Shown here: positions 1,301 through 48,264 of the stretch, in pieces
How positions within the stretch are numbered: position 1 is the first letter of the stretch
Layout of the letters: each line of letters begins with the position of its first letter
DNA from: Heliopora coerulea
Taxonomy: Eukaryota; Cnidaria; Anthozoa; Scleralcyonacea; Helioporidae
DNA length: 64,000 nt
NCBI GenBank assembly: GCA_030142905.1
Contig: JASJOG010000567.1
Location: forward strand, 46,742 to 110,741
Reading direction: 5' to 3'
Notes under the pieces: generated by a model
What the model was told of the DNA's origin: nothing
Database searches by the model: none
Seen by the model: the letters and a program-made list of their open reading frames with translations, nothing else
Made by a program: the position numbers and the translations under genes

Positions 1301-2473
1301 GTTGCCACTAGTGTGAGTAAAAGAGCGAAGTCAGAGACGAGAAAGGTTTGACACAAACTGTAGAATACGATAATAAAAGTTTGGGGCAAACTCTTGCATA
1401 TTGTTTTGGTATTCTTACACTGGTAACAAAGAACCTGTAAAGCACGAGGTAACAAAAGCTGTTCTGGTTGCAACTTATATCATGGGTTTACAACATTGAT
1501 GCTACTATTCGCAGTAGTTTTTTTCTTGCACCTCTCGAAATGTTTAATTGACAAGGGGAAAATTCGCCCTATTCACAAGTAAATATTGTTTGTCAGTTCT
1601 GGTTATGACGCTTAAAAAACGGCACAATACAAAGCGATTGTTTGACCAAATAACATTGATTTTAAGGATGAAGGCACACCTCCTTTCGCTATTGTATGTT
1701 TTGTAACCTAAATGTTCGTCTAGATAAAATCACAACCTCGGGAAACTGTTCCCTGGCAAATTTCGGAAGCTGTCAAGCTAAGTCGGACCAGGTTATTTAC
1801 ATAGATTCCGAGCCATTTTCTCACGTGAGTAGAAATACCGACAATATCTGGGATTATTGGTGCTTGAGATCTGAATTCCACAACGAGATCTTTACAGCCG
1901 TAAAAATACGGGTACTAAATAACTGGTAGCCATCGTCATTCCTCATCGTTTGCTTTACATCCTTATGGACTGCAACGACATATGAATTTTTGATAATATG
2001 GTCTTTTTCGATAGAGAAATAAGCCACTCAGAGGATAAATGAAGGGTATTCCTTCCTAAAAATCTTTTTAGGTGAAAAGATATCCGATTAAAGCCACTGA
2101 GAAAAAATGTTCCTGGCCTAAAATAAACTCACCAACCTCTCATGTCGATTGCGAAATATTTCTAAGACCTTGTAATTAGCAGGACGACGGTCAGGAGATT
2201 CTTTGTCAGCAGGAAGTGACTTAAGTATAGAAGTCTGTGCATGTGTATGGTATGAAAATACAGTTTCGTTGTCGGAGTAGAACTCGTTTCATTACGAGAA
2301 CTTGAAATCGCGGTCAAACCTGCCGCTCAGAAATACCAATTATTGACCCAGCTTTGGTGAAAGTGACAAAGGAAATTACGTAATCAAATTGAACTCGTCA
2401 CCAAATCAGTAGTTAAAAAATATCAAATACCGACCCAGCTCTATGAGAGGATTTACCGAATTGTTCAATTGTT
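1301..2473. other. No gene recognised
   Basis: AT-rich sequence between the LINE tail and the death-domain exon. It probably includes the 3' untranslated part of the minus-strand gene ending at 2474, but I could not find an unambiguous AATAAA signal in the few hundred bases downstream of that stop. Confidence 0.4.
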
Positions 2474-2787
2474 CTAACTCTCGTCGTCAGTCGATATATC
2501 ACTTTCATTCTGTTCCTTCTCCAACATGGCGGCAAGATCATCTCTCTCTATTTTTCTGAGAAGTTTAATCAGTTTGCTGAGACCACGTCCATCTTTGGTT
2601 CTCCAGTTTATTAAGATCTCGTCAGTGGGATTGCTAGGATTGCATCTTTCAAACTTCCTCAGTTCGTGTGCGGTGTATTTCATTCTGGCAGCCAATGCTA
2701 TGTAATCTCTACCGTTGACTTTTTCATTTAGTTCGTCACAAAGGTTTTTATAAATCACCGGGCTGAGCTCACCAATTTTTTCCCGCT
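2474..2787 (-). CDS. Terminal death-domain exon of a minus-strand gene
   Basis: Reading on the minus strand, a pyrimidine-rich tract and CAG acceptor precede this exon, which starts in phase 1 and runs open to a TAG stop. The roughly 103 residues form a death domain: LNEKVNGRDYIALAARM is helix 1-2, KFERCNPSNPTDEILINW is helix 3-4 with the conserved Trp, and LIKLLRKIERDDLAAML is helix 5-6. It ends in an acidic tail. Death domains are homotypic interaction modules in apoptosis and innate immune signalling. The last exon of the Roc-COR gene at 34.4 kb has the same position and entry phase. The two 57-nt mini-exons upstream (4176-4232 and 5465-5521) are phase-compatible, so this looks like the 3' end of a related gene whose 5' part is displaced or lost. 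The short open frame beginning at 2758 starts with GTG and is not the true start. Confidence 0.8.
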
Positions 2788-3499
2788 CTGAACGAAAAGA
2801 GAGAGGAATTTAACAGAACTAGCATTTAGATTCGCACTTAACGTCTGTCGTAGCTATAATGCCTGATTTCGGAAGCAGATTGGCAGAATAAAGTGTACAG
2901 GAGGCGGTTCGCTTGATTTTAGTCACAGGACGTATTGCATCATCGCTGTCATTTTTATGAGGAAACATATTTCTTCATCATGCTTTGGTCAATATCATAT
3001 CGAAAACGAAAAAATACAATGTAATTCTTTAAATTCAATGGATACCAGTTTTGATATGATATATCTCACACAAAAGATTTAAACAATCGTATATAGCTTG
3101 TCTTTAGCCTGTTGATTGGCCGTGAGAGATTAAGGAGAAAAGAAGATATTCAGTGAGGATTTTAAAGTAAAACTACATGCTGACTGATAGCGGGAAAATA
3201 AAATAAAATACAAGTTTAACCAAATAAATAAACTATCATGATTGGTAGGATAACAGTTTATTGACCAAATAAACTTGCCTTAACTATTGATCAATGGAAT
3301 TCTGATATTTATTTCTTTACTGATCTTTCCAAAACCTCTTCTAATATTACTAGTCCAGTGACTAGTAGTTCTCAAATTTTAGTAGGTTCAAACCCAAAAT
3401 CTTCTAGTCCTGGACTAATGGACTACCGCTAAGGTTGAGCACTGGAATTGTGTGCGGAACTATGGGAACCCCATCCTCTCACTGAGCGACTAGGAAGAT

Positions 3500-4370
3500 G
3501 TTTCGACTTTATTTTCCTCGAGAGTCTGATTTGACAATCACTTTGAAGTAAGGTGGAAATATCATTGTAATTATTCCTGCGTCTTGTTTTATGCTTAAGT
3601 CTTGGGTTCTCAAGATGTTGGTATTTTTTGGTATTTGTTTTATCCCTTACTAAATAAATAGATTGCATTTCAAGAAGTCAAAGGCGAGTTTATGAATGGA
3701 TGCATAGTTAAAAAAAGCTATTTCAAAAACTTGTTCACAATTAATGGGTATATTCTCCCGTTGGTTGTACTAGTGTGAACAAGTTAAAGTGTCTTGGTTT
3801 TTTTATGATGAATCTCACAAGGACGAACGTTTTCCGCAAAGAATAATAGCAAACATGAAATTTTATAAAAACATGTTGTCCTAATCAACATCAAGCTTTG
3901 TTATTTTGATAGCTTTTCTCTGCAATTTTCAACCAACAGAGGTTCATAAATACAAAGAAAGATTAACAACAGTAGAAAAGTAACCCCCAGGCGACTTCCA
4001 TTTACTTCAGTTTCATAATTGGTAGGACAATCATTTTTAATGCTCGTGACTTTTCAAGTCTAGAAATTCTCACCCTTTGCTTGAATTTTTACCCTTGATA
4101 AAAAAACTGCTGTTCGAGTGCGAAACACTCCTCGAAAAAAAGCAACAGACGTAAACAAAAAACAAAGTTGTTTACTTTTCTTACTGCGTTTCGGTTCATC
4201 TTGGGCATGCAAGCGCTTTTTGCTGCCACTACCTGTTGGACAAAGAGAACAAAACCAACCAATCTTCGTTTTGTAATGAATTTTAGAGTAAGTATGTGCC
4301 CATCATAAAATACGATATTGGGCTATAATGTACCAAAATGAAACTTTGTCAAGAGGGTTTACATTTCGTC
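3500..4370. repeat. Proximal copy of a ~1.3-kb-spaced tandem segmental duplication
   Basis: This stretch aligns collinearly with about 4838-5645. Matching landmarks include ATTGTAATTATTCCTGCG (near 3564) against ATTGTAATTATTCTTGCG (near 4899), CTATTTCAAAAACTTGTT in both, and the mini-exon with its splice sites. The spacing is about 1,290-1,335 bp. The first ~150 bp of both copies, with the motif GACTTTATT and a GAAAT core, resemble the 3' end of the Penelope-like element at 30.2-30.36 kb, so the duplicated segment probably begins in an old Penelope terminal repeat. Divergence is high, so the duplication is old. Confidence 0.75.
4176..4232 (-). CDS. 57-nt phase 1-1 mini-exon (copy 2), basic linker
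   Basis: On the minus strand it is bounded by CCAACAG acceptor and AAAA|GTAAAC donor. It encodes 19 codons starting Gly-Ser-Gly-Ser and rich in Lys/Arg (contains KKRLHAQDEPKRSKK). Length and phases are identical to the mini-exons at 5465-5521 and 35347-35403. The third of these directly precedes the death-domain exon of the Roc-COR gene, so here it is inferred to be a linker between an upstream domain and the death domain at 2474-2787. The donor (GTAAAC) is weaker than in the sister copy (GTAAGT), so it may be skipped. The basic content could act as a nuclear localisation signal, but that is speculation. Confidence 0.6.
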
Positions 4371-4429
4371 GCGTTGCGCAGCATCATCAGAGTGAAGATA
4401 AAATGAAAGTCTATGATGAATAGACAAAG

Positions 4430-4712
4430 GTAAAGGTAAATTTTCTTTATTTATACTGGATAATCCTATCAGCTATCTAAGCTGTTCTTCCTTGAGGTCC
4501 ACTAAGGTCCACCCCTCATGGATCCAGTGTTACTGCAGGAGGAAATCGGAGTATCCGGAGAAAACCTGTGATGTTTGTTAGAATCAAACTGGACAACACT
4601 CTTCTCACATGTGACTAAGGTAACTTTAATCAGGTAACTGCACCGAGCCAGAATCAAACGCTAGTCGCTGTGGTGAGAGAGACGTGCACTATCACTGTGC
4701 CACCAGTTCAGA
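4430..4712 (-). mobile_element. tRNA-derived SINE
   Basis: On the minus strand the segment begins with a tRNA-like head: GGTGGCACAGTGATAGTGCA fits an A box, and about 35 bases later GTTTGATTCTGG fits a degenerate B box (consensus GGTTCRANNCY). A tRNA-unrelated body follows. The 3' end is a short tandem tail of TTTACC-type units near 4430-4445. It interrupts the space between the two segmental-duplication copies. A related head is seen at about 22,625-22,825, so this is a dispersed family and not a tRNA gene. Confidence 0.65.
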
Positions 4713-4837
4713 ATTATCACGTTACGGGTAGTTGGCTGGGACCAGGGTCCCAAAGGAAAACGTGTGAAAAGGAACTATAGAACAACTGAGAACTCAAGAT
4801 TTGAGTATACAACAGGACTTGGGAATAATTATAATGA

Positions 4838-5645
4838 TGTCTTGACTTTATTCCAAAGGTTCGATTTGACAATTACTTGGGAACGAAATCGAAATACCAT
4901 TGTAATTATTCTTGCGCCTAATTGTATATGCTCAAATCTTGGATTCTTAGGATGTCAGTTACTTTCGGTATTTGCTTTACCCGTTACTAAATAAATTACA
5001 TTTCTGTTAGTTCTAAGGTGAGTTTATTAATGAATGCATGATTAGGAAAACTATTTCAAAAACTTGTTGATATTCAGTAGGTATATATATTCCGCAATTA
5101 ATTGTCCGTACTTGATCACGTACAAGGGTCTTCACATCGTAAGTAACTGAGACAAACGTTTTGTATGAAGAATTATTATACTAACAAATAGGAAATTTTA
5201 TGTAAAATTGTCATCATAATTAGCATCAAAACTTTGTTGTTTGGTAAGCTTTTCAGTTCGCTTTTCAACCAAATGCCTCTATAAAAACAAATAGATTGAC
5301 TAATAACCGTAGTAAAGGAATCTACAAGCGGCACCATTTATTTCAATTTCATTTAGATCGCTATGAGGATAGTTTTTGAAGCATAAAGTTTGATAAAGTG
5401 CTGCAGTTTCTATTTTAAGCACTTCTAAAAAAATTAACAAAAGTTAATAAAAAGAATTACTTACTTTTGTCATTACGGCTTGATTCATCATCGGAATGCG
5501 AACGCTTTCTGGTACCATTGCCTGGTAAATAAAGAAAAGAAAAACAATTCTTTGTTTGATAATCTCGAAATTGGTACGTGTCCAGCATAAAACACAAAAC
5601 AAAGCTATAATAGAGCAAAATAAAACTTTTTATCATCATCAAAGT
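4838..5645. repeat. Distal copy of the tandem segmental duplication
   Basis: Collinear with 3500-4370 through the Penelope-like first 150 bp, the AT-rich middle, the 57-nt mini-exon with its splice sites, and about 120 bp beyond it. Local identity is uneven, with small indels throughout. The better-preserved splice donor (GTAAGT) is in this copy. Confidence 0.75.
5465..5521 (-). CDS. 57-nt phase 1-1 mini-exon (copy 1), basic linker
   Basis: Minus-strand exon flanked by TTTACCAG acceptor and AAAA|GTAAGT donor, a near-consensus pair. It encodes 19 codons starting Gly-Asn-Gly-Thr and containing RKRSHSDDESSRNDK. It is exactly the same length and phase as the copies at 4176-4232 and 35347-35403, and all start with Gly followed by small polar residues and then basic ones. 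Being symmetric (phase 1 at both ends), it can be included, skipped or doubled without breaking the frame of a gene with phase-1 introns. It is assigned to the decayed or split death-domain gene that ends at 2474. Confidence 0.65.
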
Positions 5646-6558
5646 AGAGGTGTAACGACAGTACTGTGTAATGAATATGCAGACAGTTTAAAACGACCTC
5701 GTCACTTAAAGGTAGCAGGGGTCACGGTCGCGGAGAAGGACATATGGAAGGGAAAAATGGGCCATGCAAGGGATTTGTGATGCCCTTCTTTCCCTTTGCG
5801 CCTGCCCTGCCTCTCAGTGGTCCTACTCGAAATATACAAGCAGGTCTCAGAGTTTCCACAAGGATTTTCCGTACAGGGGAAGATTAATCAGTGGGCACGT
5901 CATGACTGGGAATTGTGGTTCAGTTTTTCATACATATTCGATCTATGCTTCAGCTTGCCGTTGCCAAAATAGCAAGTAATCTGTTCTTGATGTAAACGAC
6001 AACACCACCGCTCGTAGAATTGAAGGGCTAGGTGCTAAGGTGAGGATCAAATGCGTTGTAATGGAAAAATGTTAATGCCATATAAAATATTGGCTGGCTT
6101 GATGGTTAGTGTCTTAGATAACTTGGGTAAAGGATATTTTAAAGATAAACCCTACATACTGCCCTTACGAAAACTTCTGTGTTTATTGCTAAGTTAGGAA
6201 TGCAGTCGATCCTTCTATAACGTCTGAGATCGTAACTTTGGTTTCTTAGACCTGACTTACTCGGAAGGAGTGTCACATGCAATTAATTGTTCTGATGTAT
6301 GTGATTTAGGCACTAGAATCTTACAGACCGTTCTGCAACATTCGTGAGCAAATAGTTTGCAGGAATTACACTTTGAAGAGTTAAACGTTTTCATCAAGGT
6401 GAACAATGTTTTGTTGCAATTGTGTCACGTTAATTGGAGTTTATAGCAGTTGAGTCTCAAATAACGATCCCGGACGGCTAGTCATCATCATATTCACCTT
6501 AGCCTTAAACTCGATTTCAACGTGGCCAATTATTAAACTGACCCACAAATTAAAGAAT
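5646..6558. other. No gene recognised
   Basis: Only short frames without recognisable motifs occur here, and no convincing exon with paired splice sites was found. Confidence 0.35.
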
Positions 6559-23520: not shown

Positions 23521-23559
23521 TCTTTTATTGCTTACATTTGTGATAACAAGTAATTTATA

Positions 23560-23765
23560 ATAATAAAGAAATAGAAACTGTTTTGCCGTGTTTATATAGC
23601 CTGATACAAGTACGAGAAGAAGGTTGGGAGAAATCAAAAGCTGTTGTGTATGCCCGAGACCGAAGGTCGAGGATTTAAGCGGCCGCTTGAGAGTTCTCCC
23701 AACTTCTCTCAGTGTTTGCATCAAGCTACATAAACACAACAAAACAGTTTCTGTTTCTCTTATAA
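23560..23765. mobile_element. Foldback MITE with ~65-bp inverted repeats
   Basis: The left arm (AGAAACTGTTTTGCCGTGTT, on through GATACAAG and GAAGGTTGGGAGAA) is inverted and repeated in the right arm (AGAAACTGTTTTGTTGTGTT, GATGCAAA, GAAGTTGGGAGAA). The loop contains a GCGGCCGC site. There is no coding capacity and the superfamily is unassigned. Confidence 0.65.
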
Positions 23766-23860
23766 AATAAGCAAAGAACTAAGTGATAATAATTGTGAAT
23801 AACAAACTTTATTTTTACTATGAAATCGTACGTTCTTCTTGCAAGTTCGTAGACCAATTA

Positions 23861-23866
23861 GAGCTC
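23861..23866. repeat. 6-bp target-site duplication, left (GAGCTC)
   Basis: GAGCTC directly precedes the TATG end of the transposon and is repeated exactly at 27,717-27,722. The site is palindromic, so strictly it could also belong to the inverted repeats. Confidence 0.7.
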
Positions 23867-24131
23867 TATGGTGGCCTGTCGTTGTGATTCAAAAATTCTA
23901 CTTAACAGCAAACAAAATAGAAAAAATCAAAACTAAAATACATTTAAAATTAAAATGAAATCAAAAAAAAAATTAATCAGTAAAACAAAAATAAATAAAA
24001 TTTTAAACGAAATTGATTTTAAAATAAAACCAAATTAAATTTAAATCAATTTCAAATAAAAATTAAAGTAAAATGAAAATTTTAGGCACCCTATCGTTGT
24101 CACAGTATACCACAATGCCTTGCGAACAAAC
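23867..24131 (+). repeat. Left terminal inverted repeat
   Basis: Starts TATGGTGGCCTGTCGTTGT and runs to GCGAACAAAC, matching the right repeat throughout with about 15 differences. The interior is A-rich on this strand. The innermost part, with CACAGTATACCACAATGCC, is the most likely promoter of the plus-strand gene, whose ATG lies 39 bp inward. Confidence 0.9.
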
Positions 24132-24587
24132 ACATGTAATCGAAAACAGTCGTCATTTTGCTTTGCATTATGAGTAACGAAGCATGGAAAAAATTCAAAC
24201 AAAATATGAAAGAAAAGTGCATAAGCAAGGGTAAAAAAAGAGAAAGATGTATACTGAACTCGGGCGAACTTGTGCAGCGACTTAGCTCGTCTGTTTCCGG
24301 GAAAGTACAGAAGTACTCCAGAGTAGGTCCGAGAGAATTCGTACCTTTTCCGCACGAAGAAATAACCATCAAGAACATCAAGTCAGCTTGCGAGAAACAC
24401 TTTTCTTCGGTTACTCAGGATGGCTTAGTCCGTGATGTAGTGGCTGGGGACCAAGGGTCATCTTGCAGAACAATGGAACAACTTCCCGACACAAAAGTGA
24501 TCCATGTTCGTTTTATCGAAAACGTTGAGAATGAACTTGACATTATGCAAGATAGTTCTGAACCTTGACCCAAGCGTGTGAAAACCC

Positions 24588-25172
24588 TGTTACTGACGTG
24601 TAACAAGAAACGAAAAGATTTATTCACAAAAACGAAAAGAAACTAAAGAGTTAATTGACAAACGAGAAAAGAAACTAAAGAGTTAAGACAATAACTAAAA
24701 TGTTCAAGGCTTATCTGTCTTCTCGACACTTTTAAGCTTGCGACTCTGACGACCCAACGGTGAAAGATGACAAAAAGTTCCAGCAGCAAAGCGTTCCAAC
24801 CAACTGTTAACTTCTTGTATTCAGGTAACGATCTTGAGCACGTAACAACATGAAACAGCACACAATAACACACACCGAGGGTCGGAGCGAGTCGCACTTA
24901 TATAGCCTGTCCGTAAACTATGACGTCAACTTACGTCATTTCTTAAATGATCTAATGTACTATTTTTACAAACAATCATGACAATGCTCATGACTCAAGG
25001 AACCTAAAAAGCATGACAATGTTCATGACTCAAATAACTTAAAAATTACTTACACTAGCATGAGTCAGCAAAATTACTATCTCAGTATTGATAAGCAGTA
25101 TAACTAAGTAAAAACTATAGGAAGTTCGAATGTTCGAGAATGTTCTCGGCGCGTGACGACTGTCACGTAACA
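24588..25172 (-). mobile_element. Solo LTR (585 bp) with 4-bp target duplication
   Basis: The ends are TGTTAC and GTAACA, and ACCC flanks both sides (24,584-24,587 and 25,173-25,176). Excising the LTR and one ACCC restores a continuous frame across the kinase gene, which confirms the boundaries. Minus-strand orientation is supported by a TATA box at 24,904-24,897 and an AATAAA at 24,624-24,619, close to the LTR 3' end. The internal retrotransposon was lost, presumably by LTR-LTR recombination. The superfamily is not determined. Confidence 0.85.
24897..25145 (-). promoter_or_regulatory. LTR promoter with heat-shock element, AP-1 and CRE sites
   Basis: Directly visible motifs: TTCGAGAATGTTC at 25,133-25,145 is a perfect three-unit heat-shock element (TTCnnGAAnnTTC). 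AP-1-type TGACTCA/TGAGTCA sites lie at 24,991-24,997, 25,026-25,032 and 25,061-25,067. A palindromic CRE, TGACGTCA, is at 24,921-24,928, with a half-site TACGTCA at 24,932-24,938. A TATA box (TATATAAG on the minus strand) is at 24,904-24,897. Order and spacing are those of a U3 promoter firing on the minus strand. Stress-responsive activity is inferred from motif identity only. Confidence 0.65.
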
Positions 25173-25616
25173 ACCCGACCAAATTCGTTTACTGGTTCAC
25201 TGTCGAAAGCAGATAGCGAAGTTACGACGAAGAAGCAGTATCCCAAAAACCTGTCGATATCCGAAATGATCAAATTAGGGAAAAAGATTGAAGAATCAAC
25301 TACCATCGTCCATCTTTTCACCTTCGATCTTCAGTCAATGTCTTGGTCAAAATCACCTAGTGAAGTGGAGTTTTCTGTGTCAAAGAAACCATTTGCTTCA
25401 GGAGGTTTTCGCGAAGCGTATAAGGTTACATCACAAGCAAAAAATATTAGTGGCAAAACTTGGGTTATCAAAAAATACCTTCCTGATGCTACGAAAACAA
25501 TTTCAGAAATAGGAGAAACGGCTGAAAGCCATACAAGAAAGGTGGTACAAATGCACCATCTAGCTGCTAACATGGCTGCAAAATTTTCCTACGCTGTGCA
25601 GACAGTTGGCAATTGA

Positions 25617-25950
25617 GGGATTTATTGCCTCACATAATTGCAACAAGTACTGTGGATCATTGGAGCTACCAAAGTTATAAACTGTTATCTATGAAGTGAA
25701 CTTGTAGTGAACATGTCACATGAAATGCAATGATCATGATTTGAATAAGTGGCGTTGAGTTAATATATTTATTTGTTATGTTGTTTCAGTTTCTTTAATG
25801 AACTTTAAACCTACATGTAGCATTTCATGGTGTGTTATTATAAATACAGGCAACTGTTCATTCAGATAAACTGTATTGTTCTGAGATTTCTCTCTAGAAG
25901 TTTTCTTTGAGATAGATAAAGGCATCCGAACACTCAGATGGTTCCACCAA
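25617..25950. other. Intergenic part of the transposon
   Basis: Separates the convergent 3' ends of the kinase and integrase genes. The rest of the alpha-kinase domain is not found here, so it was probably deleted. A TGTTTCAG acceptor-like sequence near 25,785 is not followed by a kinase-like frame. Confidence 0.5.
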
Positions 25951-27449
25951 TTATGGATGTGGAATAATTTTCAAGCAACAGGCTCTAAATTCAGGTGACA
26001 AAAAGTCATCTTCCACCTCAAGTACTCCTGACTGCATTGCAACTTCCTCCAACTGCTGTTCTGTTACAGGAGAACCTTTATAGGAGAAAATTGGGTGACT
26101 GTTTACAATTTCAACTTATCACATGCAAGAGACACATAAAATAGTGGACAAAAACACACCACAATCATCCAACTGATAATGATTGGGAAACTCATAAATG
26201 TGATTAGGGACACCAGCTGGAAGATCTGTTTCTTTTTGTTCTCGGATTCTTTGACTGTTCCAAATCATGTCTTTAAATTTGTCCAGTTGTGCTTGAATCA
26301 TGGGAATAAATAGGAAAAAAAGCAACGATCTAAAATAGAAATTGCATTATATAGTTTTTGAAATAACTGTCATCCTTTCCATGTGGATTGATTGTACCTG
26401 TCATCTTCATCATGTGGATTATAATGATAATGATCTTTCAGTCTTTTTAAGTGCTCTTTAAAATATTTTTCTAGTCTTTCATGCAATTCTCGGCACAATC
26501 TTTCAATCTAGGAATGACAAGTACAGTTCCATTATGTAAGAACTGATTTTTATGTAATTTTGTCCAAAGCATTAAACAAACACAAACGTTCCTCCACCTG
26601 GTGTTCTACAGTTCCTTCTTTTACAACTAATCAAACAAAAATGTCGTACGCTTGAAAACAAAAAAATGAAGTGATAATTGACCTGATTTGATGTTGATGG
26701 GCCATACATGATCATATTGGATGGGCCATCAGTGCCAAGCATTTGGTGCAAGTAGGCATGCATTGTAGCCATTGTCCCTATTTCTGTTCCCTTATTAAGC
26801 CTTAAATACGTTGGGATTATCCTTGTTTCATATAGGTATTCCAAATACCATCGCCCAATGTATAATTTCATATAGGTATTCCAAATACCATCGCCCAAAT
26901 ACCATCGCCAAATACCATCGCCCAATTTATGGCTGTGTCGATGCAGCCATAAATTGCTAGAGGAAAGGTGATATTTTGATAGCCCATTAACTTGTCGTGG
27001 CCATCTAAGGAGTGGACAAAATTTGGGTCTTTGGTAGTGTACTTGCCCTTTTTCTTCTTCCGTCCAGTGCCAACACCACCCCTTGCGTCCAACCCGTCAG
27101 GATCGACATCTTGCATAACTGCATAAACTAAGTCGCGCGGAACATTGAGCTTGTGCTCTTGACGTAGTTTCTTTTGCATGGCCCTGTAACCAAGGAGTTT
27201 GCCTGGGCCATCAATCTCTTTGACCACAGCTTCTCTGACCTGTTCAACCGTAACATTCCTGTCGGTATAGCTGATATCAAAATACCGCATTCGACGGTCT
27301 AGTGAGCTTAAGCTCCATGCATATTGTGAATAATCACGGTTTAAAAAATCCAATATTTCGTTTCTTCTCAAATCTTCTTTTACTTATTTTTGTAAATCAT
27401 CCCTTAAAGACCTGTCCTCCTTCCAATCTGCATTCCGCCGATACGCCAT
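25951..27449 (-). pseudogene. Integrase-core (DDE) transposase of the IS3EU-like element, four exons
   Basis: Exons on the minus strand are 27,449-26,683, 26,507-26,398, 26,329-26,160 and 26,075-25,951. All have GT-AG borders, and their phases (0, 2, 1) join correctly. The protein starts MAYRRNADWKEDRSLRDDLQ, has a helix-turn-helix-like N-terminus (REAVVKEIDGPGKLLGYRAM), the first catalytic Asp in HSLDGHDKLMGYQ, and the region LRLNKGTEIG, where the second catalytic Asp appears replaced by Asn. The last motif, YGPSTSNQ-IERLCRELHERL, holds the Glu. The C-terminus is SPVTEQQLEEVAMQSGVL. Damage: an in-frame TAA at 27,386-27,384, and a segment between the first and second Asp replaced by short tandem copies that shift the frame (26,820-26,945). 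The gene starts 4 bp inside the right inverted repeat. It probably made the element's transposase, and this copy is dead. Confidence 0.8.
26820..26945 (-). repeat. Local palindrome and tandem re-duplication inside the integrase gene
   Basis: The minus strand has ATTTATGGCTG...CAGCCATAAAT as a perfect 11-bp inverted repeat, then repeated units GGGCGATGGTATTTGG and GAATACCTATATGAAA. The units duplicate codons for an RWYLEYLYE segment that occurs once in an intact gene. This is consistent with template switching during repair. Confidence 0.7.
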
Positions 27450-27453
27450 AATT

Positions 27454-27716
27454 GTTTGTTCGCAAGGTATTGTGGTATACTGTGACAACGATAAGCTGCC
27501 TAAAATTTTCATTTTACTTTAATTCTTATTTGAGATTGATTTAAATTTAATTTGCTTTTATTTTAAAATCAATTTTGTTTGAAATTTTATTTATTTTTGT
27601 TTTACTGATTAATTTTTTTTTATTTCATTTTAATTTTAAATGTATTTTAGTTTTGATTTTTTCTATTTTGTTTGCTGTTAAGTAGAATTTTCGAATGACA
27701 ACGACAGGCCTTCATA
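27454..27716 (-). repeat. Right terminal inverted repeat
   Basis: The reverse complement begins TATGAAGGCCTGTCGTTGT and follows the left repeat to GCGAACAAAC. The integrase ATG lies at 27,449, only four bases inside its inner edge. Confidence 0.9.
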
Positions 27717-27722
27717 GAGCTC
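27717..27722. repeat. 6-bp target-site duplication, right (GAGCTC)
   Basis: Exact repeat of 23,861-23,866, directly after the ATA end of the element. Confidence 0.7.
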
Positions 27723-36316: not shown

Positions 36317-36467
36317 CTAAAAAATAAATAAATAAACAAACAAACAAATAAATAAATAAAACAAGCTAAAGTAAATTTTTAAATTTTTTGAAACAGCTTT
36401 AAATTACTCCATGTGACATAACTTTAAATTGTTTCGACATGAAGTTAAAAATCTCATACATTCATAC
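36317..36467. other. Short intron with AAATAAAC repeats
   Basis: 151-bp intron between the two COR exons. It holds an AAAT/AAAC short tandem repeat at about 36,327-36,360, read on the minus strand as part of the acceptor pyrimidine tract. Confidence 0.7.
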
Positions 36468-38438
36468 CCGATATTGCAACCTGGATTCTAGTTACATGGC
36501 GGATCATAATCACGGAATATTTAATGCTGTTTTCACACTTGAAAATGCGACAGCAATTGCAGTGAAATTCAGGCATTTCCACATCGTCGTGTTCGACATC
36601 ACCACGGGCCCATTTCAATATTTCCACAAGGACTCGCGTGTAAAGTCCAAGTGGAATGGTATCCTCTTTAAAATTAAGGTACAGTGACGGCTGCAAACTC
36701 GACGACAACACTTTCTTAATATCGCTCTCCTTCCATCTTTTAGTCACCATGGATGGAACCAGATAGATGTTTTTCCCCCAATGACAGATTAAGCCCACTC
36801 GAACCATGATATCTTTCAAGGCTTTCTCTTGGCTATGATTCTCCAACGGATTGGGAAGGTTTCCGAAGTCGAGCACTCCTTCCGTTGTCAGCTTTTTCCA
36901 AGCACGAGAAGCAGCCATATCCCAGTAAAGCTTCGGGGCAACGGTTAATACTTGGGTAAACAGCTTTACTAGCCATGCTGCATCAAGTACAACCAGGTCG
37001 CTCATGGGTGGATTTCCATCGAAATGGACGACTATGTTCTCCTCGTGAAAGAACTTCATTGCTTTGTCGAACGTTTCGTTCACTTGACATTGTTCTCCCA
37101 GTTTCCGTGCTTCATCGAGTGAGATATAAGGGCAATCTTTCAGCTTTTCCAACCTCCTATGGGTATCGAGAGCACGTTCTAGTAATAGCCAACTTACAGG
37201 GGTTTCGTCTTGAGCTTTCAAAACATCTTGCGCTATTTCGAAGATTTTTGCTCGTAGAGCTTTGAGCTCACTGTTCTCATCAGCATTCCTTGGCTCTTTG
37301 TTCTTGATGACGTACCTTGCGACAATAAGCGAACCGCAACCAATGCGCTCAAACCTCTGCTCAAGAGCTTCAGTAACTTTCTTCACCTTCTGCTCTAGTT
37401 TCTCACGACGTCTCAGCATATCAGGTTTGGTAAAAACAAGAATAGTTTTGGGAAGATTAAGATTTTGTACGGAATTATTTTTGGCCTCTTTACTGTAAGA
37501 GTTAAGGTTACGAAGAGCTGCCATCCACCTTGCAACATAATCGAAATTCGTTTCATGCAGGGCGTTTTCTTGGTCTCTCACTTTTTTTATTAATCCCTTT
37601 TCCACGAACTTTGGCTGTGCCACGTCGTCAAGGGACATTGACAGATCAACAACAAGTATAAATAGCGTTCTCAACCTCAGCATTATCGAATGCACGTCGT
37701 GGAAGACAGACTGGCCACCAACGTCTCCAAACATGAATCTAATTGTGTCCATGGTATCATCACGGTAACTTTCGACGTTTCTCATTTCTTCGTCGATCTT
37801 GCGTTTTAGGTCGTCTGATACGTGATAGTCAAGTTGCTCTTTCATACTTTTCGGAGTGTCACTTTTTCCTTTGTCATCCTTTCCACGTCTATGTTCGTTG
37901 CTACGGCAGTGATCTCCAGATGTAGGTCTGTCTCTAGCTCCACCTTCATCTCCAGCTACATCTTCATCTCCAGCTCTAGTTCGATTTTTATCTCCCTGTC
38001 CAACTTTATCATCAGCTCCTTCTTCGCTTCCATTTTTAGCTTCACTTGGATCTCCAGATTCACCTTCAAGTTCAATGCCGTCATCTTCATCGCCAGCAAC
38101 ATTGCCACTTCTTCCTTCTTCAGGCTTGTCTTTACTTTCAGCTATTGTTCTGGCGATTTCCATTCCGAGGACATTGTCAGTATATATTTCGGATGCCATG
38201 AACTGGTCATCTTTTGCACGCTTCCATGGATTGGATTTGTCATTCTCTTGTACCTCAATAACATCGAATTCAGTGCCGATTGTGCTCGATTCTTTCTTTT
38301 TTGACCATTCACCCAGAAGACTTTTTTTCAGAGACGTTTTTCCCACACCACCTTGACCAATAAAAAGTAATGACATACGATTGTTTTTCTTTTTACCATG
38401 CTTTAGCGTTTCCGATACTGCTTCCTTCACTTTCAGTT
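36468..38438 (-). CDS. Roc GTPase and COR exon of an ankyrin-Roco-death protein
   Basis: A single 1,971-nt exon (657 codons), phase 1 at both ends. The acceptor CCATTGTAG follows a long T run; the donor is TCGG|GTATGA. Roc motifs: P-loop GQGGVGKTSLKKSLLG (about residues 232-247 of the joined protein), switch II FGDVGGQ (about 442-447) and the guanine-specificity motif FTKPD (about 540-544). Between switch I and switch II lies an acidic, low-complexity insertion of some 120 residues. COR follows with PVSWLLLERAL, the helix KFFHEENIVVHFDG, and DLVVLDAAWLVKLFTQVL. COR mediates dimerisation of Roco proteins and couples it to GTP hydrolysis. An apparent upstream Met at 38,559 lies in the intron and is not the start. 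Downstream exons add the rest of COR and a death domain; upstream, the phase and context fit the ankyrin exon at 47.5 kb. Confidence 0.88.
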
Positions 38439-39919
38439 CTACAATGGCAAGAAGACAAAAAAAAAAAAAAAAAAAATCAAAAACACAAACTAGGATCAAG
38501 CGTCTAAAGGTAACTCTAAAGTTTAAAAAATATCTGAAAATTAAGGTCGTCAACAACACTTTTCAGCAAGGTCCACTTTTTTCAAAACACATTCTTAAGA
38601 AAAATTTGTCAAAAATGATTTCACCATGTTAATTGGAGTGTAAGTTTAAGAAATTTGAAATGGAAGAGCAGTCATCATTTCCACAACTTTTTATCAGGAC
38701 TGCAATTGTAAAGTCGTCGGGTTGGTCGGGCTATAATTTATAAATGCAGAGGTTAGTACTCTCGTGCCACGCTTAGCGTGTGGGCCTGGGGATTATCCAC
38801 ATGACGGCATGTTGTTCTGAACGATGTCGTTCTGTTATAAATTATGTTTTTGTTGATGGTCTGAGTGATGAACGTAATAAGTTTCGGAATTCCTATGGCT
38901 GTAACTATGAGGTAATTCTTTGAGTTTCTATCCAAAGTTTTGGTAATATCAGACGAACAGTTGTTTCCTTAAAAAACTCTCCACTGGTCACAGTGAAGTA
39001 TTTGGTGTCTGGTAAGAGTTCTATCTCGTAATATCCTCCAATCGTATCTTAGACGAGCTGTCCTGATCATGAACTGTTCTCTTCTGGATACGTCACTGGA
39101 GGACAAATCGAATGAATTCCTTCTCGAGAAAAATTATCTAAAGAGTGTATACAAGATATTTGCCAACTCACTTCACGGACGATTTTTCTTTATCCTTGAT
39201 GTATCTGAAACGCATGACGTCAGGAACCCAATTAAATGGAGTGAGGGCAATGGATGAAATTGAGGGGACATCTTCACGTGTTACTAAGAAAATATAGGGT
39301 TTTCATCAAGAAAACTAGGCTTTTTTTGATATGCAAGTAATATAAAGCTGATTTTTGGAGACCACCAAACTTGACCAAGTTATACCAGTATTGGCAGGAG
39401 GGTTGAGAAATGAATCCAGCGGAAGATTTTCAGAAGCTTGTTGAAGGCTACCCCAGGAGTTTAATTTACGTTAAACAAATTAGAGGCAATGCAATCAAAT
39501 ACTCACAAAGTGCATGTAATTCTTTGCCCCAAGGGAATTCTGAAGTAGTTAATAAAACCTAAAAATACATCTATCTCTTATCCATTTCTGATTTAAATCT
39601 ACCAGATCCCTAACTGGCTTTCTTTGTGAAGTGTACGGTGCAATGAAATGGACGGTGTTTCGAAAATTTAAGTTGAATATTCTCAGCTTAGTTGTATGTA
39701 AGTTTTTGACTCGAAATGCATATAGATATATGATTTTAACTTAGGTGACATCGGTTACTGCAAAGCAACCCTTTGTCCGGTGCTTCCAACTGCAAGCTTG
39801 TCCTTGAAAAGGTAGGTTTTGTACCATATGACAGCCTACATGAAGTATAGAAACCCCGCCTTGTAGAACATAGTTGTAATAATTTAGTTGTTTGCTATCA
39901 AACATTACATGGTGTCATT

Positions 39920-40729
39920 ATGCAAAATCTTAAACCCCTTGGACCGCTGAAGTTCCACGGTAACATTTCAGATAATTGGCGCATATGGAAACAAAAATGA
40001 ACACTGTACGCTAAAGCAAGTGGTGCTGAAAAGAAAGACGAAGACACACAGTGTGCTCTCTTCTTACATGTTATTGGTGAAGACGCCCTGGAGGTATATA
40101 ACTCATTCACGCTCGAAGAAAGTGAGCAGAACAAAATCGCTCCGCTGATAGCAAAATTCGAAGCCTACTGCTCACCAAAGAAGAATTTGACGTACGAGCG
40201 TTACCTCTTTAACACTTGTACTCAGAACGACCGACCATTCGACACATTCGTTGTGGATTTACGAAACAAAGCGAAGACCTGCGAATTTGGCGCGCTGCAC
40301 GACACCTTAATCCGTGATCGCATTGTTTGTACAATTGACTCGTACACTGTTCCCGAACGCCTTCTCCGTAACACCGATCTTAGCCTGGAAGATGCTATCG
40401 CCACTGTACGTGCTGCTGAATCAAGTAAAACTCAACTTGAAAAGATGAATAGCCCCGAATGCCAAGCCGACGCGCTTGAAAAACAACAACAACGCGAAAC
40501 TGACACACACAAGAAGAACCCGACGAAAGGAGAACCTTGCCGTCGCTGTGGAACAGTACACGCAAAAAAGAAATGTATTGCTTATGGAAAAACGTGCAAC
40601 AAGTGTCATGTCAAAAATCATTTCGCCAAATTGTGCCTTACTAAATCGCCAACAACTTCAAAAGGAAAGAACAAGAATAAAGTCGACGCCATCGAACCTG
40701 AAGCGCAACCCGACACGGAAGAAAGCTAA
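39920..40729 (+). pseudogene. Gypsy gag with two zinc knuckles
   Basis: The ATG at 39,920 starts MQNLKPLGPLKFHGNISDNW, the usual opening of cnidarian Ty3/Gypsy gag. A TGA interrupts the frame at 39,998-40,000, after which it stays open to 40,729. The middle is a helical capsid-like region with LFLHVIGEDALEVYNSF. The C-terminus has two CCHC zinc knuckles, CRRCGTVHAKKKC (CX2CX3HX4C) and CNKCHVKNHFAKLC (CX2CX4HX4C), which bind RNA. A possible primer-binding site, starting TGGTGTC just before the ATG, follows a TTACA that could end the 5' LTR. The stop and downstream breaks make the element defective. Confidence 0.8.
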
Positions 40730-40789
40730 GATGAATTATTCATCAGTGAAACCTGCACAGTCAAAACAAACACTGACAATGACGAAATT

Positions 40790-42380
40790 TTGAGAAACCT
40801 CAACGTGAACGGCAAATCCACTCGTTTCAAGATAGACACTGGTGCACAGTGCAATGTAATACCACACATTTTGTTTTCCAAGTTACCGAACAAAGGAAAG
40901 CTTCAACAAACCAAAACCAAGATTACCGCTTATGATGGAGGAAACGTACCTATCAAGAGACTATGTCAACTGAAAATTGCCACGAACGAAAAAGCAATTC
41001 ACGCCGATTTCTACGTTGCACTCCAGACTGCTTCTTGGATTAAAATCTTGCCAAGAATTGAATTTAATTACCGTCAACGAAATCCAGACAAACAACCACA
41101 ATGATCCTAACATCCACGAAAAATTCACCGATGTCTTCACTGCCCTTGGACAAGTCGCAGGTGAACACCACATCGAGCTGAAAGAAGATACTCAGCCAAA
41201 AATCCACCCACCTAGAAAGGTCCCACTAAGTCTAATGCCAAAACTAAAGGTAACACTTGCCAAACTTGAGAAAACTGGAGTAATAAGCAAATCTGAGAAA
41301 CCAAGTGATTGGGTCAACAGTCTTGTAATTGTTGAGAAGAAACACGGATATCTACGCCTCTGCCTCGACCCGAAGGATCTGAATAAGGCAATCAAGCGAG
41401 AATACTACAAGTCTCTATCGATTGAGACAATCTCTAGTAAGCTAAGTGGAAAGAAAGTTTTTACTGTCATTGACATGACCAATTGTTACTGGCAGAAGAA
41501 GCTTGATGAACAATCTTCTGAACTATGTACTTTCAAAACGCCTTTTGGAAGTTACAAGTTTAACAGAATGTCCTTTGGAATTTGCTCCGCATCTGACATC
41601 ACCCAGAAAATGGTTGACGACCATTTTGGTGATATTGATGGTTTTCTGGCTGTACATGATGATATCACCATCGCTGGCAAAGACATCGAAGAGCATGACA
41701 TCATTCTACGACGAGTACTCAACTGCGCAAGGGAAAGTAACGTAAAGTTCAACCGGAACAAGATCCAGCTGAGAGTGAACGAGGTCAAATACCTAGGAGG
41801 TATTGTCAGTGCTGATGGATTCAAGCCAGATGAAACAAAAGTTAAAGCCATTGTGGACATGCCACGTCCTGACAACAAGCAAGACCTCCAACGCCTTTTG
41901 GGAATGGTCAACTATCTCTCATCATTTATTCCTAATGTCTCTGCAATCACTGCACCATTGAGAGCCCTGTTGAAGAAAGATGCCCAGTGGATATGGTACC
42001 ATGAGCATTACCAGAGTTTAGAGAATATCAAGAAAGTCTCGACAAGTAACCCAGTCCTGAAATTTTATGATGTGGATAAACCAGCAACGCTCCAAGTAGA
42101 TGCCTCTCTACATGGCTTAGGAGCATGCCTCTTACAAGAAGGACATCCAGTAGCGTATGCATCAAGATCCTTAACGAAAGCTGAAGAGCAGTATGCCCAA
42201 ATTAAAAAAGAACTCTTGACAATCTTATTCGGCTGTGAAAGGTTCCACTGCTACACATATGGAGTCAAAGTAGATGTTCAAAGCGACCACAAGCCCCTCG
42301 AGCCCAACATGAAGAAACCGCTTTCACAAACACCGCCTAGAATACAACGCTTGCTGATTCGACTCCAAAATATCAATTAG
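40790..42380 (+). pseudogene. Gypsy protease, reverse transcriptase and RNase H
   Basis: The protease active site FKIDTGAQCNVIP is visible in a frame to about 41,030. A frameshift then moves to a second frame open to 42,380. The latter has reverse transcriptase blocks (RLCLDPKDLNKAI, FTVIDMTNCYWQ, FGSYKFNRMSFGICSA) and the catalytic FLAVHDDITIAG, with the two Asp retained but His-Asp-Asp instead of the usual Tyr/Leu-Asp-Asp. RNase H follows with LQVDASLHGLGACLL and VDVQSDHKPLE. A one-base deletion near 42,367 ends the frame just before the LINE insertion point. Confidence 0.85.
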
Positions 42381-43328
42381 AAGTCAGATTATTATTATTA
42401 TTATTATTAAAAACTTATTTACAAACAATAACCCTTCAGCTTGATTGCTGCTTTTCAAGGGGTTGTTTAATAAAAGAAGAAAGAATATTTAAAAAAATCA
42501 GTATCATTACAACAATATTAGCAGTCTCTTGATCGATATAGGTGTTTAGTAAGGACTGCTATGAAAGAATATGCAGACAGTTGCTCATGAATATCTAAAA
42601 TTTCGTTAGGTAATGTCTTCCAGGCATAAGCTCCTCGGTACGAAAATGATTTTTTCATAAAAGATCTGTTAGGTATGTCAAGAAGTAGCTTACGCCTATT
42701 GCTACGCGTTTGATGATAAATATTGTCGCAGTATGTAAACATGTCGCAGATGTACTCTGGTGCCATGCTACGGACAGCCTTAAACGTGGTTAGAAGCTCT
42801 CTTCTTTTAAGAATATTTTCTATTGGGCTCCACCCTAAGGTCCGGAAAATTGTTTTTGATCTTATCTCATAATTTGAGCCAGTTATTGAACAAGCAGCTC
42901 GTTTTTGCATTTTATTGAGCTTTTCTAAATATGTCTTGCTTCCGTCGTTCCAGACTGTTGAGTAATATGTAAAGTAGAGGACTAACAGAGAGTTATACAT
43001 ACAAATTAGGTCATTATGAGGTACATATGGCTTTGCCTTTCTAAGTAGGGCTATAGCACTCGAAAGTTTTTTGCATTGTTCTTCAATATGTTCCGTCCAC
43101 TTCAATTCGTTATCAATTATAATACCTAAAGTTTTCTTATGTTTAACTCGTTTAATAGTGGAACCATTTATTAATATTCGGAGATCAGCAGAAGATTGAT
43201 TAAGTCTTCTATTTGAGGCTATTAACATAAATTCGGTTTTCTTGGTGTTCAATGTTAACTTATTTGCTTCCAACCATTTGCTAACATGAAACAAGTGAGC
43301 GTTCAATTTGTTTTCGATTTCAGTTAAG
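42381..43328 (-). mobile_element. 5'-truncated CR1-like LINE inserted in the Gypsy pol gene
   Basis: A minus-strand frame of 262 codons (43,306-42,518) encodes the reverse transcriptase thumb and C-terminal region: SKWLEANKLTLNTKKTEFM, then KTLGIIIDNELKWTEHIE, LNKMQKRAACSITG and SFSYRGAYAWKTLPNEIL. The catalytic core is missing. The 3' tail is a run of TAA units (plus-strand ATT repeats at 42,391-42,411). The insertion separates RNase H from integrase of the host Gypsy element, so it is younger than that element. A related copy with the same type of tail lies at 54.2-54.7 kb. Confidence 0.85.
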
Positions 43329-44115
43329 GTCTTTCTACATTGCCGACGCGTTATCCAGAGCGTTTCTTACTGAACCAGATGATCTACCTACATCAGACCT
43401 GCACGAAGATAGCGAAGTCATGATACATAGCCTTGTCACAAATCTACCAGTCACTGACCAAAAGATGATTCAGTTAAAGGAAGCAATTAGAACTGATGAA
43501 ATACTGCAGATCCTAGGCAAAACAATCAAGCAAGGCTGGGCAAACAACAAGAGAAATGTTCCTAAAGAAATTATCCACTACTGGCAATACAAAGATGAAT
43601 TGAGTGAAGCTGAAGGACTGCTTTCCAAAAGCCAGAAGCTCATAATTCCCAGTTCCATGAGATCAGAGATGTTGAACCTCATCCATGAAAGTCACTTTGG
43701 AATGACAAAATGCAAGGCGCGTGCACGAACTGTGATCTACTGGCCTGGTATGTCAGCCGACATAGAACGCCTCATTAGTAAGTGTGACATATGCCTCACC
43801 TACATGTCAGTCAATCCCAAGGAACCAATGCAATCTCATCCAACTCTTGCAAGACCATGGCAGAAACTTGGTTCTGATATCCTTGAATACAAAGGAAAGA
43901 ACTTCCTTGTTGTAGTAGATTACTACTCGAAGTACATCGAAACCTGCAAGATGGGAGAGAAGACAGCATCCAGTGTAATCAAGCACATGAAACCTATCCT
44001 TGCTCGTCATGGAATCCCAGAAGAGATTGTCGCAGACAACATGCCATACAACAGCAGCGAATTCAATGATACATATAAAGTCCTGTACTGTGATTCGAAT
44101 TCTAATGTATTCTAA
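43329..44115 (+). pseudogene. Gypsy integrase, C-terminally truncated
   Basis: The frame resumes after the LINE with YIADALSRAFL, the junction sequence that normally follows RNase H. The H2C2 zinc-binding region (HESHFGMTKCKARAR, CDICLTY) is present. Catalytic-core blocks WQKLGSDILEYKGKNFLVVV and YSKYIE (first Asp) and EEIVADN (second Asp) are also present. Sequence stops matching after YNSSEF, before the catalytic Glu and the chromatin-targeting tail. The protein would therefore be inactive. Confidence 0.8.
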
Positions 44116-47162: not shown

Positions 47163-47463
47163 CCTTAAAGCCTTAATCCCGAATGAAACTGTTTTTTGGC
47201 GCATAGGCCATAATGTGTAAGTTGTGGGATGCAAGCCTCTGGATGACCACTTTGCCTCCTGTTGCCTGTATGAGGGCGTGATGAAAAGTACAGACTGCTT
47301 ATGCTGCATCAGCACTTTAATTTATTTATTACATATTACTGAGAATAGTGACCCCATATTAGAATGCAAAATAATTGATAAACAATTAAAGGTCAAAATT
47401 GAAAAATGTAAAATATAAAAAATCTTTGACCCATCAGAATAAATTACAATTCACAGTAATTAC

Positions 47464-48044
47464 CTGCTTCTGCAGCATGCTGAATAAGATAATCAGCCAC
47501 CCCGGTATGTCCATAACCTGATGCAATATCGAGTGGACTATCACCATCGTCATTTGTTGATGTGAAGTCACTTCCTTTGTTGATCAGTAATTTTATTGTA
47601 TCTAGATGACCACCAATGCAGGCATCGTGAATAGGCAAGTAACCTTTCTCGTCTCTTGAGTTAACTTCTGCACGATGATGGATTAGATATTCAACAACAG
47701 ATGAATGTCCAAACAATGATGCAGCATGAAGGGGAGTACGCCCATAGTTATTTGTTGATGTGAAGTCACTGTCTTTAGTGATCAATAATTTTACAGTATC
47801 TAGATGACCTTCAAGGCAGGCATCGTGAATAGGCAAGGAACCAGTAGAGTTTCTACTGTTAACTTTTGCACCACATTGGATTAGATATTCAGCAACTGAG
47901 GTATGTCCACGTAAAGAAGCACGATGTAAACCAGTTCCCGTTCGAAACCATTCTCCCTGCTCTTCAATGTCTGCGCCATTGTCCAATGCAGCTTTAACGC
48001 CATCCAAATCTCCTTCCTCTGCTGCAGCCAGAACAGACATTTTC
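47464..48044 (-). CDS. Ankyrin-repeat exon of the Roc-COR-death gene
   Basis: The exon enters in phase 2 after TTTTGAATAG and leaves in phase 1 at GAAGCAG|GTAATT. Its internal ATG at 48,040, with A at -3, could also serve as a start. After a capping helix (MSVLAAAEEGDLDGVKAALD) come five ankyrin repeats with the canonical TPLHxAxxxGH core: TGLHRASLRGHTSVAEYLI, LPIHDACLEGHLDTVKLLI, TPLHAASLFGHSSVVEYLI, LPIHDACIGGHLDTIKLLI and SPLDIASGYGHTGVADYLI. Repeats alternate between two types, and a 198-bp (66-residue) unit is visibly duplicated in the DNA. Ankyrin repeats bind partner proteins. The joining codon to the Roc exon is GAA, and the combined frame stays open. Confidence 0.82.
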
Positions 48045-48264
48045 CTATTCAAAACATACGCATTCACATTTTAAAAAAATGGATGCCAAGTCTCTGCTCC
48101 CCCGCTCCCCCCCTCCCCCTCCTTTTAGCACCCGGTTGGGAACTTCAGCCCCTAAAGCATCGAATCTCTATCGCCAACTCAAAAGCATCCAAGTTTAGAA
48201 CAAGAGCCCCACAATTGTTATAACTATACACTTTTTCATGATATGACAATAAAAGGTAGTTAAT

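Follow-up and report, generated by a model that had tools for sequence, protein, structure and literature searches.

The locus lies in a stretch of 64,000 nucleotides of Heliopora coerulea DNA (contig JASJOG010000567.1), hereafter called the window, of which positions 23867-27716 carry the remains of two genes on opposite strands between long terminal inverted repeats. The following features were identified, the uninterrupted sister copy L032 serving as reference:

23861-23866, left target site duplication GAGCTC
23867-24132, plus strand, left terminal inverted repeat (TATGGTGGCCTGTCGTTGT...), with the motif CCTRTCGTTGT at 23875 and 24090
24170-25680, plus strand, remnant of an alpha-kinase gene that starts 38 bp inside the repeat and has a TGA at 24566-24568; a single exon in L032
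24170-24565, plus strand, N-terminal region of the kinase, without a Pfam match in the window copy; modelling gives the order strand-strand-helix-strand-strand plus short additional helices
about 24588-25171, nested insertion TGTTAC...CGTAAC(A) of 584-585 bp inside the kinase gene, flanked by the duplication AACCC (or ACCC)
25173-25604, plus strand, kinase linker and N-lobe (FASGGFREAYKV, WVIKKYL)
25603-25604, junction of a 329-bp deletion with 2-bp AG homology; most of the kinase C-lobe is gone
25609-25680, plus strand, kinase C-terminus AIEGFIASHNCNKYCGSLELPKL, with the zinc-site motif and the natural stop surviving
25886-26075, minus strand, integrase exon 4, its end approximate and preceded closely by two stops
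26160-26329, minus strand, integrase exon 3
26398-26507, minus strand, integrase exon 2, with the catalytic Glu, IERLCRELHE
26683-27449, minus strand, integrase exon 1, with its ATG just inside the repeat, a stop in codon 22, a rearrangement at about 26860-26930 and a D-to-N change in RLNKGTE
27453-27716, minus strand, right terminal inverted repeat, with CCTGTCGTTGT at 27698 and CTTATCGTTGT (one mismatch) at 27485
27717-27722, right target site duplication GAGCTC

When the two repeats were aligned, 252 of 264 positions were identical, with 4 gap columns, and an inverted repeat of 265 bp at 95% identity excludes chance. The repeats of about 265 bp, the ends (TATGG...TCATA) and the GAGCTC on both sides are as originally described. 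The ends read TATGG..CCATA in the copies L032, L039 and L054, and these are the TA..TA ends of the IS3EU superfamily. Duplications of 6 bp flank the window copy (GAGCTC), L032 (CATGTC), L033 (TATGTG), L037 (CTTATA), L039 (CAGCAG) and L054 (ATCCAC); the survey covers these six elements and L031, whose right end is altered and at which no target site duplication was seen. On the basis of the termini, the 6-bp duplications and the features of the transposase, we read the locus as a decayed copy of a two-gene, IS3EU-type cut-and-paste DNA transposon, with a probability of about 0.85.

The kinase gene begins at the ATG at 24170, upstream of the part recognized in the original prediction, and has an N-terminal region of its own. 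Its N-lobe matches the Pfam Alpha_kinase profile with 24.6 bits (cut-off 21.3) over positions 1-58 of 185, which bears out the proposal of an alpha-kinase-type gene opposite the integrase. Searching the PDB by sequence with the kinase fragment of the window copy gave no match. As a gene it is dead, owing to the stop, the nested 584-bp insertion and the 329-bp deletion. The minus-strand integrase exons have GT..AG borders, and L032 has the identical four-exon layout, in agreement with the four-exon gene first described. This gene is broken as well, by the stop in codon 22, the rearranged middle, the change of the second catalytic Asp to Asn and the two late stops. Both genes had been correctly recognized, whereas the kinase start, the nested insertion, the loss of the C-lobe and the broken state of the integrase had been missed. 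The integrase pieces in the window score below the Pfam cut-offs (rva_4, 15.2 against 26 bits; HTH_21, 18 against 28.1); their identity was taken from close relatives. The relative P0035 matches PF24764 with 80.7 bits (cut-off 26), and the L032 integrase has D, D and E all present, while inspection by eye showed its first 130 residues to be free of cysteine; together the profile match and these residues identify a DDE integrase-core transposase that lacks an HHCC zinc domain. A PDB search with the integrase profile gave no match, and no relative was found when viral_contigs was scanned with the kinase and integrase alignments and genome_contigs with the integrase alignment.

The sister copy L032 (contig C557, 3592 bp) carries both genes uninterrupted between repeats of the same kind. 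Its repeats are 97.4% alike, its kinase frame of 417 codons is uninterrupted, and its integrase, in four exons, keeps all three acidic residues. In the completeness check with the Alpha_kinase profile, the match of the window copy was limited to 58 of the 185 positions and that of the L032 kinase spanned all of them (positions 1-185, 128.1 bits, cut-off 21.3). Both genes are also carried by L031 and L037, and L033 retains the kinase start only. Copies that lack the kinase, which had been named in advance as evidence against a two-gene element, do exist among the unpaired integrase loci read, namely L034-L036, L038 and L040. However, L034, L035, L036 and L038 all go back to a single truncated insertion that was multiplied as part of a larger repeat, and in L040 two halves of the integrase form a palindrome; in substance these copies do not speak against it.

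At the scale of the genome, an integrase lies within 5 kb of 33 of the 60 merged kinase loci, against an expectation of 0.12, and all 33 pairs are convergent. When the kinase loci were defined by the Pfam Alpha_kinase profile only, 28 of 45 were paired, again all convergent (28/28). The layout is common to at least four families, whose kinases are only 44-50% identical; it occurs at none of 37 more divergent integrase loci, the line of 41% identity between closer and more divergent integrases having been drawn after the list was seen. Unpaired loci make up 27 of the 60 kinase loci, 24 of them covering <250 of 405 residues, and 17 of the 50 closer integrase loci. Three loci with near-full kinases (L053, L054 and L055), chosen before the results of the integrase search, all have a convergent integrase. 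Among 11 weak kinase loci (L042-L052), an integrase was found at one, L046; a reading of the kinase-start fragments in L042-L045, L048, L050 and L052 as host genes was rejected, as neither a kinase domain nor an integrase lies nearby. The 5-kb count supersedes a proxy based on shared contig size, in which kinase P0150 and integrase P0037 were each listed with a contig of 969,663 bp (any match in 27 of 20000 randomised draws); another shared size, 1668 bp, leaves no space for the two genes together and was put down to chance. A correlation of kinase and integrase distances gave 7 of 120 permutations and rests on one close pair. Since the convergent layout recurs across at least four families, the kinase is a conserved gene of the element and not a chance insertion. 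It is the regular second gene of these elements, and the proposed two-gene element stands, with repeat-bounded copies carrying both genes.

The profile of these kinases matches the TRPM7-type kinase 1ia9 (named transient receptor potential-related protein in the PDB) with an E-value of 5.9e-30. Residues K227, E300, H334, D348, Q350 and G351 are kept in all 61 kinases compared, and the other catalytic or zinc positions nearly so (D358 in 59, H391 in 58, C393 in 59 and C397 in 56); we take the kept residues to be the ATP lysine, the DxQG and DP motifs and the zinc residues. From its sequence, the L032 kinase is predicted to have a complete alpha-kinase active site. Intact relatives combine the catalytic residues with an extra N-terminal domain, which is conserved and may adopt a beta-grasp-like fold, a reading drawn from how strands and helices follow one another in two models (with mean pLDDT values of 78.4 and 85.9) and not from a fold search. 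For this domain in the window copy, PDB and Pfam gave no match at E-values up to 1; besides Alpha_kinase, no family was found in more than three of 50 aligned members (strays with E 0.0015 at best). NCBIfam gave no match for four proteins.

The two genes converge from the two ends of the element. Their starts lie a short way inside the long terminal repeats, one gene at each, so that either repeat plausibly provides the promoter for the gene next to it. The repeats plausibly also carry the sites for the transposase, an integrase-type DDE enzyme that would cut at the TA..TA ends and insert with the 6-bp duplication; ends and duplications are observed, and the chemistry is predicted. We lean slightly towards a trans-acting regulator, a kinase that would set the rate or outcome of transposition by phosphorylating either the transposase or a factor of the host. 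Clearly below even odds, but a serious contender, is a kinase directed at the host and not at transposition, which would help copies to persist by countering silencing, DNA-damage signalling or innate defence. The extra conserved domain could bind such a target, and excerpts of PMC12730594 offer a parallel, in that the TET/JBP genes of fungal IS3EU elements have been proposed to counteract silencing, yet sequence cannot separate a host-directed from a transposase-directed role. A neutral passenger, kept only because the repeats bracket it, is improbable. In its favour, many copies of the kinase are broken. Within families, the kinase has a dN/dS of 0.49-0.86 and the integrase one of 0.26-0.59, which gives no strong indication of selection on the kinase at that level and a constraint weaker than on the integrase. 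The IS3EU-derived fungal element Styx has four genes of which none is given as a kinase in excerpts of PMC10853768. However, the catalytic residues are conserved, the L032 frame is uninterrupted, the convergent layout recurs and, between families, pN (kinase 0.34-0.36, integrase 0.24-0.25) lies far below a saturated pS (0.83-0.86). Finally, a host gene captured once by the window copy, or an independent insertion unrelated to the element, can be set aside for this genome: alpha-kinases do exist as host genes, and the host-like loci L047, L049 and L051 (26-29% identical) have no integrase nearby, but the element kinase occupies one and the same position in copies whose duplications differ, recurs in at least four families, is convergent with the integrase in 33 of 33 pairs, and has no boundaries of its own, the nested insertion that was found lying within it.

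The presence of a protein kinase among the regular genes of a cut-and-paste transposon suggests control of transposition or of the host by phosphorylation, an idea that can be tested because an uninterrupted copy exists. Moreover, the kinases of L054 and L055, each with a convergent integrase beside it, are ∼64% and 77% identical to P0234 and P0211, proteins annotated as TRPM6-like or vwkA-like, indicating that cnidarian genes so named can be transposon genes. Tentatively, and at somewhat less than an even chance, the alpha-kinase may be an ancestral, dedicated second gene of a large IS3EU lineage common to fungi and animals and an essential regulator of transposition. If this is true, many cnidarian alpha-kinases now listed as host genes, such as 'TRPM6-like' and 'vwkA-like', would be transposon genes, as would the alpha-kinase expansion reported for rust fungi. 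Excerpts of PMC4469406 describe the family as highly expanded in rusts, a table row giving 79 and 39 for two genomes taken to be rusts, and IS3EU kinases may be the cause of this abundance.

Among known systems, these elements resemble the IS3EU superfamily (Repbase), as described in excerpts of PMC10045372 and PMC12730594, in their TA..TA ends (TAYGG..CCRTA in fungi), 6-bp duplications and integrase-core transposase without HHCC. Membership of Ginger1, Ginger2 or IS481EU was rejected, since all six duplications found are of 6 bp, whereas excerpts of PMC10045372 give 4-5 bp for Ginger, about 4, 15 or 25 bp for IS481EU, and HHCC for Ginger1. Styx and the IS3EU-derived fungal 'Intons' likewise join an IS3EU-type transposase to extra conserved genes (excerpts of PMC10853768 and PMC3520738), but those of Styx are GATA, CCHC and DUF3577 genes (PMC10853768). 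With the alpha-kinase family (TRPM7, myosin heavy chain kinase A, eEF2 kinase) the element kinase shares the full-length Pfam domain and the catalytic and zinc residues; it differs in being transposon-encoded and fused to an N-terminal domain for which Pfam has no name. Within the literature searched, an alpha-kinase with IS3EU was found in PMC12730594 only; a further match, PMC6505742, concerns an eIF2-alpha kinase in its excerpts and was rejected. The system had been put forward as a candidate for an undescribed one, but excerpts of PMC12730594 already state that in TET+ fungal IS3EU families the alpha-kinase gene runs opposite to the transposase gene, as in our 33 convergent pairs, a feature given there for those families and not as a criterion of the superfamily. 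In the fungal families described there a TET/JBP gene, thought to help the transposons escape silencing, lies between the two genes; in L032 neither room nor an open frame for a third gene was seen between kinase and integrase, and the elements described here are animal. As far as the literature searched shows, the animal families, the pairing count and the kinase architecture are new.

Inverted repeats of 266 and 264 bp enclose the element. They are identical at 252 of 264 aligned positions, and each has a CCTRTCGTTGT motif close to both its outer and its inner end (one mismatch in the inner right copy). Inside the repeats lie two convergent genes, and a further element is nested in the kinase gene.

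Features of the element (window positions)
23867-27716, 3850 bp: IS3EU-type element, flanked by GAGCTC on both sides
ATG at 24170, 38 bp inside the left repeat, plus strand: alpha-kinase gene
ATG at 27449, just inside the right repeat, minus strand: integrase-core gene, four exons
24588-25171, 584-585 bp: nested element, TGTTAC..GTAAC(A), duplication AACCC/ACCC

The nested element is either a solo LTR or a short DNA element. A hairpin lies a short way to the left of the IS3EU-type element at 23555-23770 (73-nt arms, 74% complementary, 70-nt loop). Elsewhere in the window, the minus strand holds an open frame of 702 residues that contains a GQGGVGKTSLKKSL nucleotide-binding motif (36454-38562), which we take to resemble ROCO/COR-type GTPases, and a 208-residue open frame (47444-48070), presumably similar to ankyrin-like repeats. 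Open frames at 40001-44115 presumably resemble the gag, reverse transcriptase and integrase of an LTR retrotransposon.

Excluding indels, the window copy is 95.86% identical (3106 matches, 134 mismatches) to L032, a sister copy on contig C557 of the host genome. Its kinase gene has a stop at 24566 and a net insertion of 589 bp (the 584-bp element plus the AACCC duplication), and it has lost most of the C-lobe through a 329-bp deletion at 25603; positions 25609-25680 retain the C-terminus, including the natural stop and the HxCNxYC zinc-site motif. The integrase gene has a stop in codon 22, two late stops, a rearranged stretch near 26860-26930 and a second catalytic Asp changed to Asn. Neither protein can be made whole from the window copy.

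A left-repeat search of the host assembly (429.8 Mb, containing the window) gave 31 matches; we examined the contigs of the strongest (8 loci) and three loci of a second group, leaving out weak AT-rich matches. The original prediction had looked to a full-length copy with intact kinase and integrase genes as support for a two-gene element, and L032 is such a copy: it is 3592 bp long with the target site duplication (TSD) CATGTC, its kinase runs uninterrupted for 417 codons, and its integrase retains D, D and E with zero stops over 406 residues to the assigned exon end, after which the frame continues three residues to a stop. In L031 (C434) both genes are present, disturbed by a single frameshift and a single stop; owing to its altered right end, no duplication is visible there. 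Both genes also occur in L037 (C347, TSD CTTATA), an older copy in which stops and shifts interrupt the kinase. L033 (C667, TSD TATGTG, 1659 bp) is derived by deletion and keeps only the N-terminal part of the kinase. L034, L035, L036 and L038 hold the integrase half and one repeat without kinase; their flanks and interiors are ∼93-99% alike across several kb, and they are therefore counted as one truncated insertion multiplied within a larger repeat. This carrier is a repeated segment of several kb at least, present in four places.

Genome-wide, the kinase query P0152 gave 104 matches in 60 merged loci (103 of 117 candidates scored) and the integrase query P0030 gave 114 matches in 87 merged loci (102 of 329 scored); since some candidates were unscored, locus counts are lower bounds. 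An integrase lies within 5 kb in 33 of the 60 kinase loci, against a chance expectation of 0.12 pairs, and all 33 pairs are convergent. Of the 33 kinase loci with a coverage of 250 or more of the 405 residues, 30 are paired, and 24 of the 27 unpaired loci cover fewer. Integrase loci of at least 41% identity are paired in 33 of 50 cases and those below in none of 37, a line set after the list had been seen. The 17 unpaired loci above it are the four truncated copies L034, L035, L036 and L038 (on C99, C302, C319 and C474), three loci on C101, six forming opposite-strand pairs on C754, C231 and C628 (of which C754 alone was examined), and those on C15, C115, C177 and C334, counted from search coordinates. 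On C754, locus L040 is a fold-back or recently palindromised element: a 2160-bp inverted repeat (1281-3440 and 4282-6441) with arms 99.86% identical, each carrying the first part of a second-family integrase without kinase.

The Pfam Alpha_kinase profile alone gave 55 matches in 45 loci, 28 of them paired and all 28 convergent; as with P0152, none of the 37 divergent integrases was paired. These 37 merged loci (e.g. on C62, C311, C223 and C759) are 30-40% identical to P0030, and open frames of ∼400 aa occur in some of them; no alpha-kinase match was found within 5 kb of them in the assembly, and they are perhaps a related lineage without kinase. Fourteen loci (L042-L055) were examined on the basis of the kinase match alone. 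The near-full kinases (L053, L054, L055) have a convergent integrase in 3/3 cases. Among the weakest 11 (L042-L052) an integrase occurs at one, L046, which the coordinate lists had left unpaired yet which proved to hold one when examined. At L042, L043, L044, L045, L048, L050 and L052 only the kinase start (N-terminal domain) was found, with neither kinase domain nor integrase nearby. The near-identity of L044 and L045 would fit a multiplication of short derivatives.

Besides the family of the window copy and L032, L041/L039 with L053 form one family (L041 and L053 kinases 94% identical), and L054 and L055 represent two more. For comparisons between families the L041 kinase and L039 integrase, from loci sharing stretches ∼98% alike, were treated as one element. 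L039 and L054 have the same termini, TATGGTGGCC..CCATA, with the TSDs CAGCAG and ATCCAC, respectively. The L053 repeats extend beyond the stretch examined, and for L055 and L041 the stretches examined showed no repeat pair. Between families, identity is 44-50% for the kinase and 55-63% for the integrase; the two are correlated (r 0.95), a value equalled in 7 of 120 permutations because it depends on a single close pair. Between families saturation is reached at synonymous sites (pS of 0.83-0.86 in the kinase and 0.83-0.87 in the integrase), against pN of 0.34-0.36 and 0.24-0.25, respectively, which indicates that both genes were under constraint during family divergence. Within families, the kinase has dN/dS of 0.49-0.86 and the integrase of 0.26-0.59 (four comparisons each), as expected of decaying copies; taken alone, these values would be no evidence of selection on the kinase.

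Many of the best 120 of 306 kinase relatives in a profile search are full length (about 400-440 residues), and the Pfam Alpha_kinase match spans 1-185 of 185 in four proteins and 2-185 in a fifth (10 scanned, one being an integrase). The solved structure that matches best is 1ia9, that of a TRP-related kinase. All 61 kinases compared keep K227, E300, H334, D348, Q350 and G351, and the zinc residues H391, C393 and C397 are retained in 56-59 of them. The N-terminal 130 residues, conserved among aligned members, correspond to no named Pfam domain; their model, strand-strand-helix-strand-strand with short extra helices, may be beta-grasp-like. Named relatives among the matches listed belong for the most part to the Cnidaria (Paramuricea, Dendronephthya, Desmophyllum, Actinia, Exaiptasia); a hemichordate (Saccoglossus) and a sea spider (Nymphon) also occur, once each. 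Judged by these closest relatives, the host is probably an octocoral.

The ends, duplications, gene layout, uninterrupted copy, conserved active sites and recurrence are directly observed. The transposase would cut and join through DDE chemistry, each repeat may be the promoter of one gene, and the kinase could act in trans on the transposase or on a host factor, two targets between which sequence cannot decide.

Literature searches, which did not reach Repbase and were followed up in a minority of the papers mentioning IS3EU, found none that links alpha-kinases with animal IS3EU elements. IS3EU elements are described as always having TA..TA ends and usually 6-bp duplications (PMC10045372); Styx is derived from an IS3EU ancestor 'encoding two proteins' (PMC10853768), and the IS3EU-derived fungal Intons have five to six conserved proteins, according to a meeting report (PMC3520738). 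Rust TET+ IS3EU families end in TAYGG..CCRTA, and in all TET+ fungal families a TET/JBP gene separates the transposase gene from an alpha-kinase gene of opposite orientation (PMC12730594). An alpha-kinase opposite the transposase has thus already been reported in fungal IS3EU, so that the element, initially put forward as a candidate undescribed system, belongs to a known kind.
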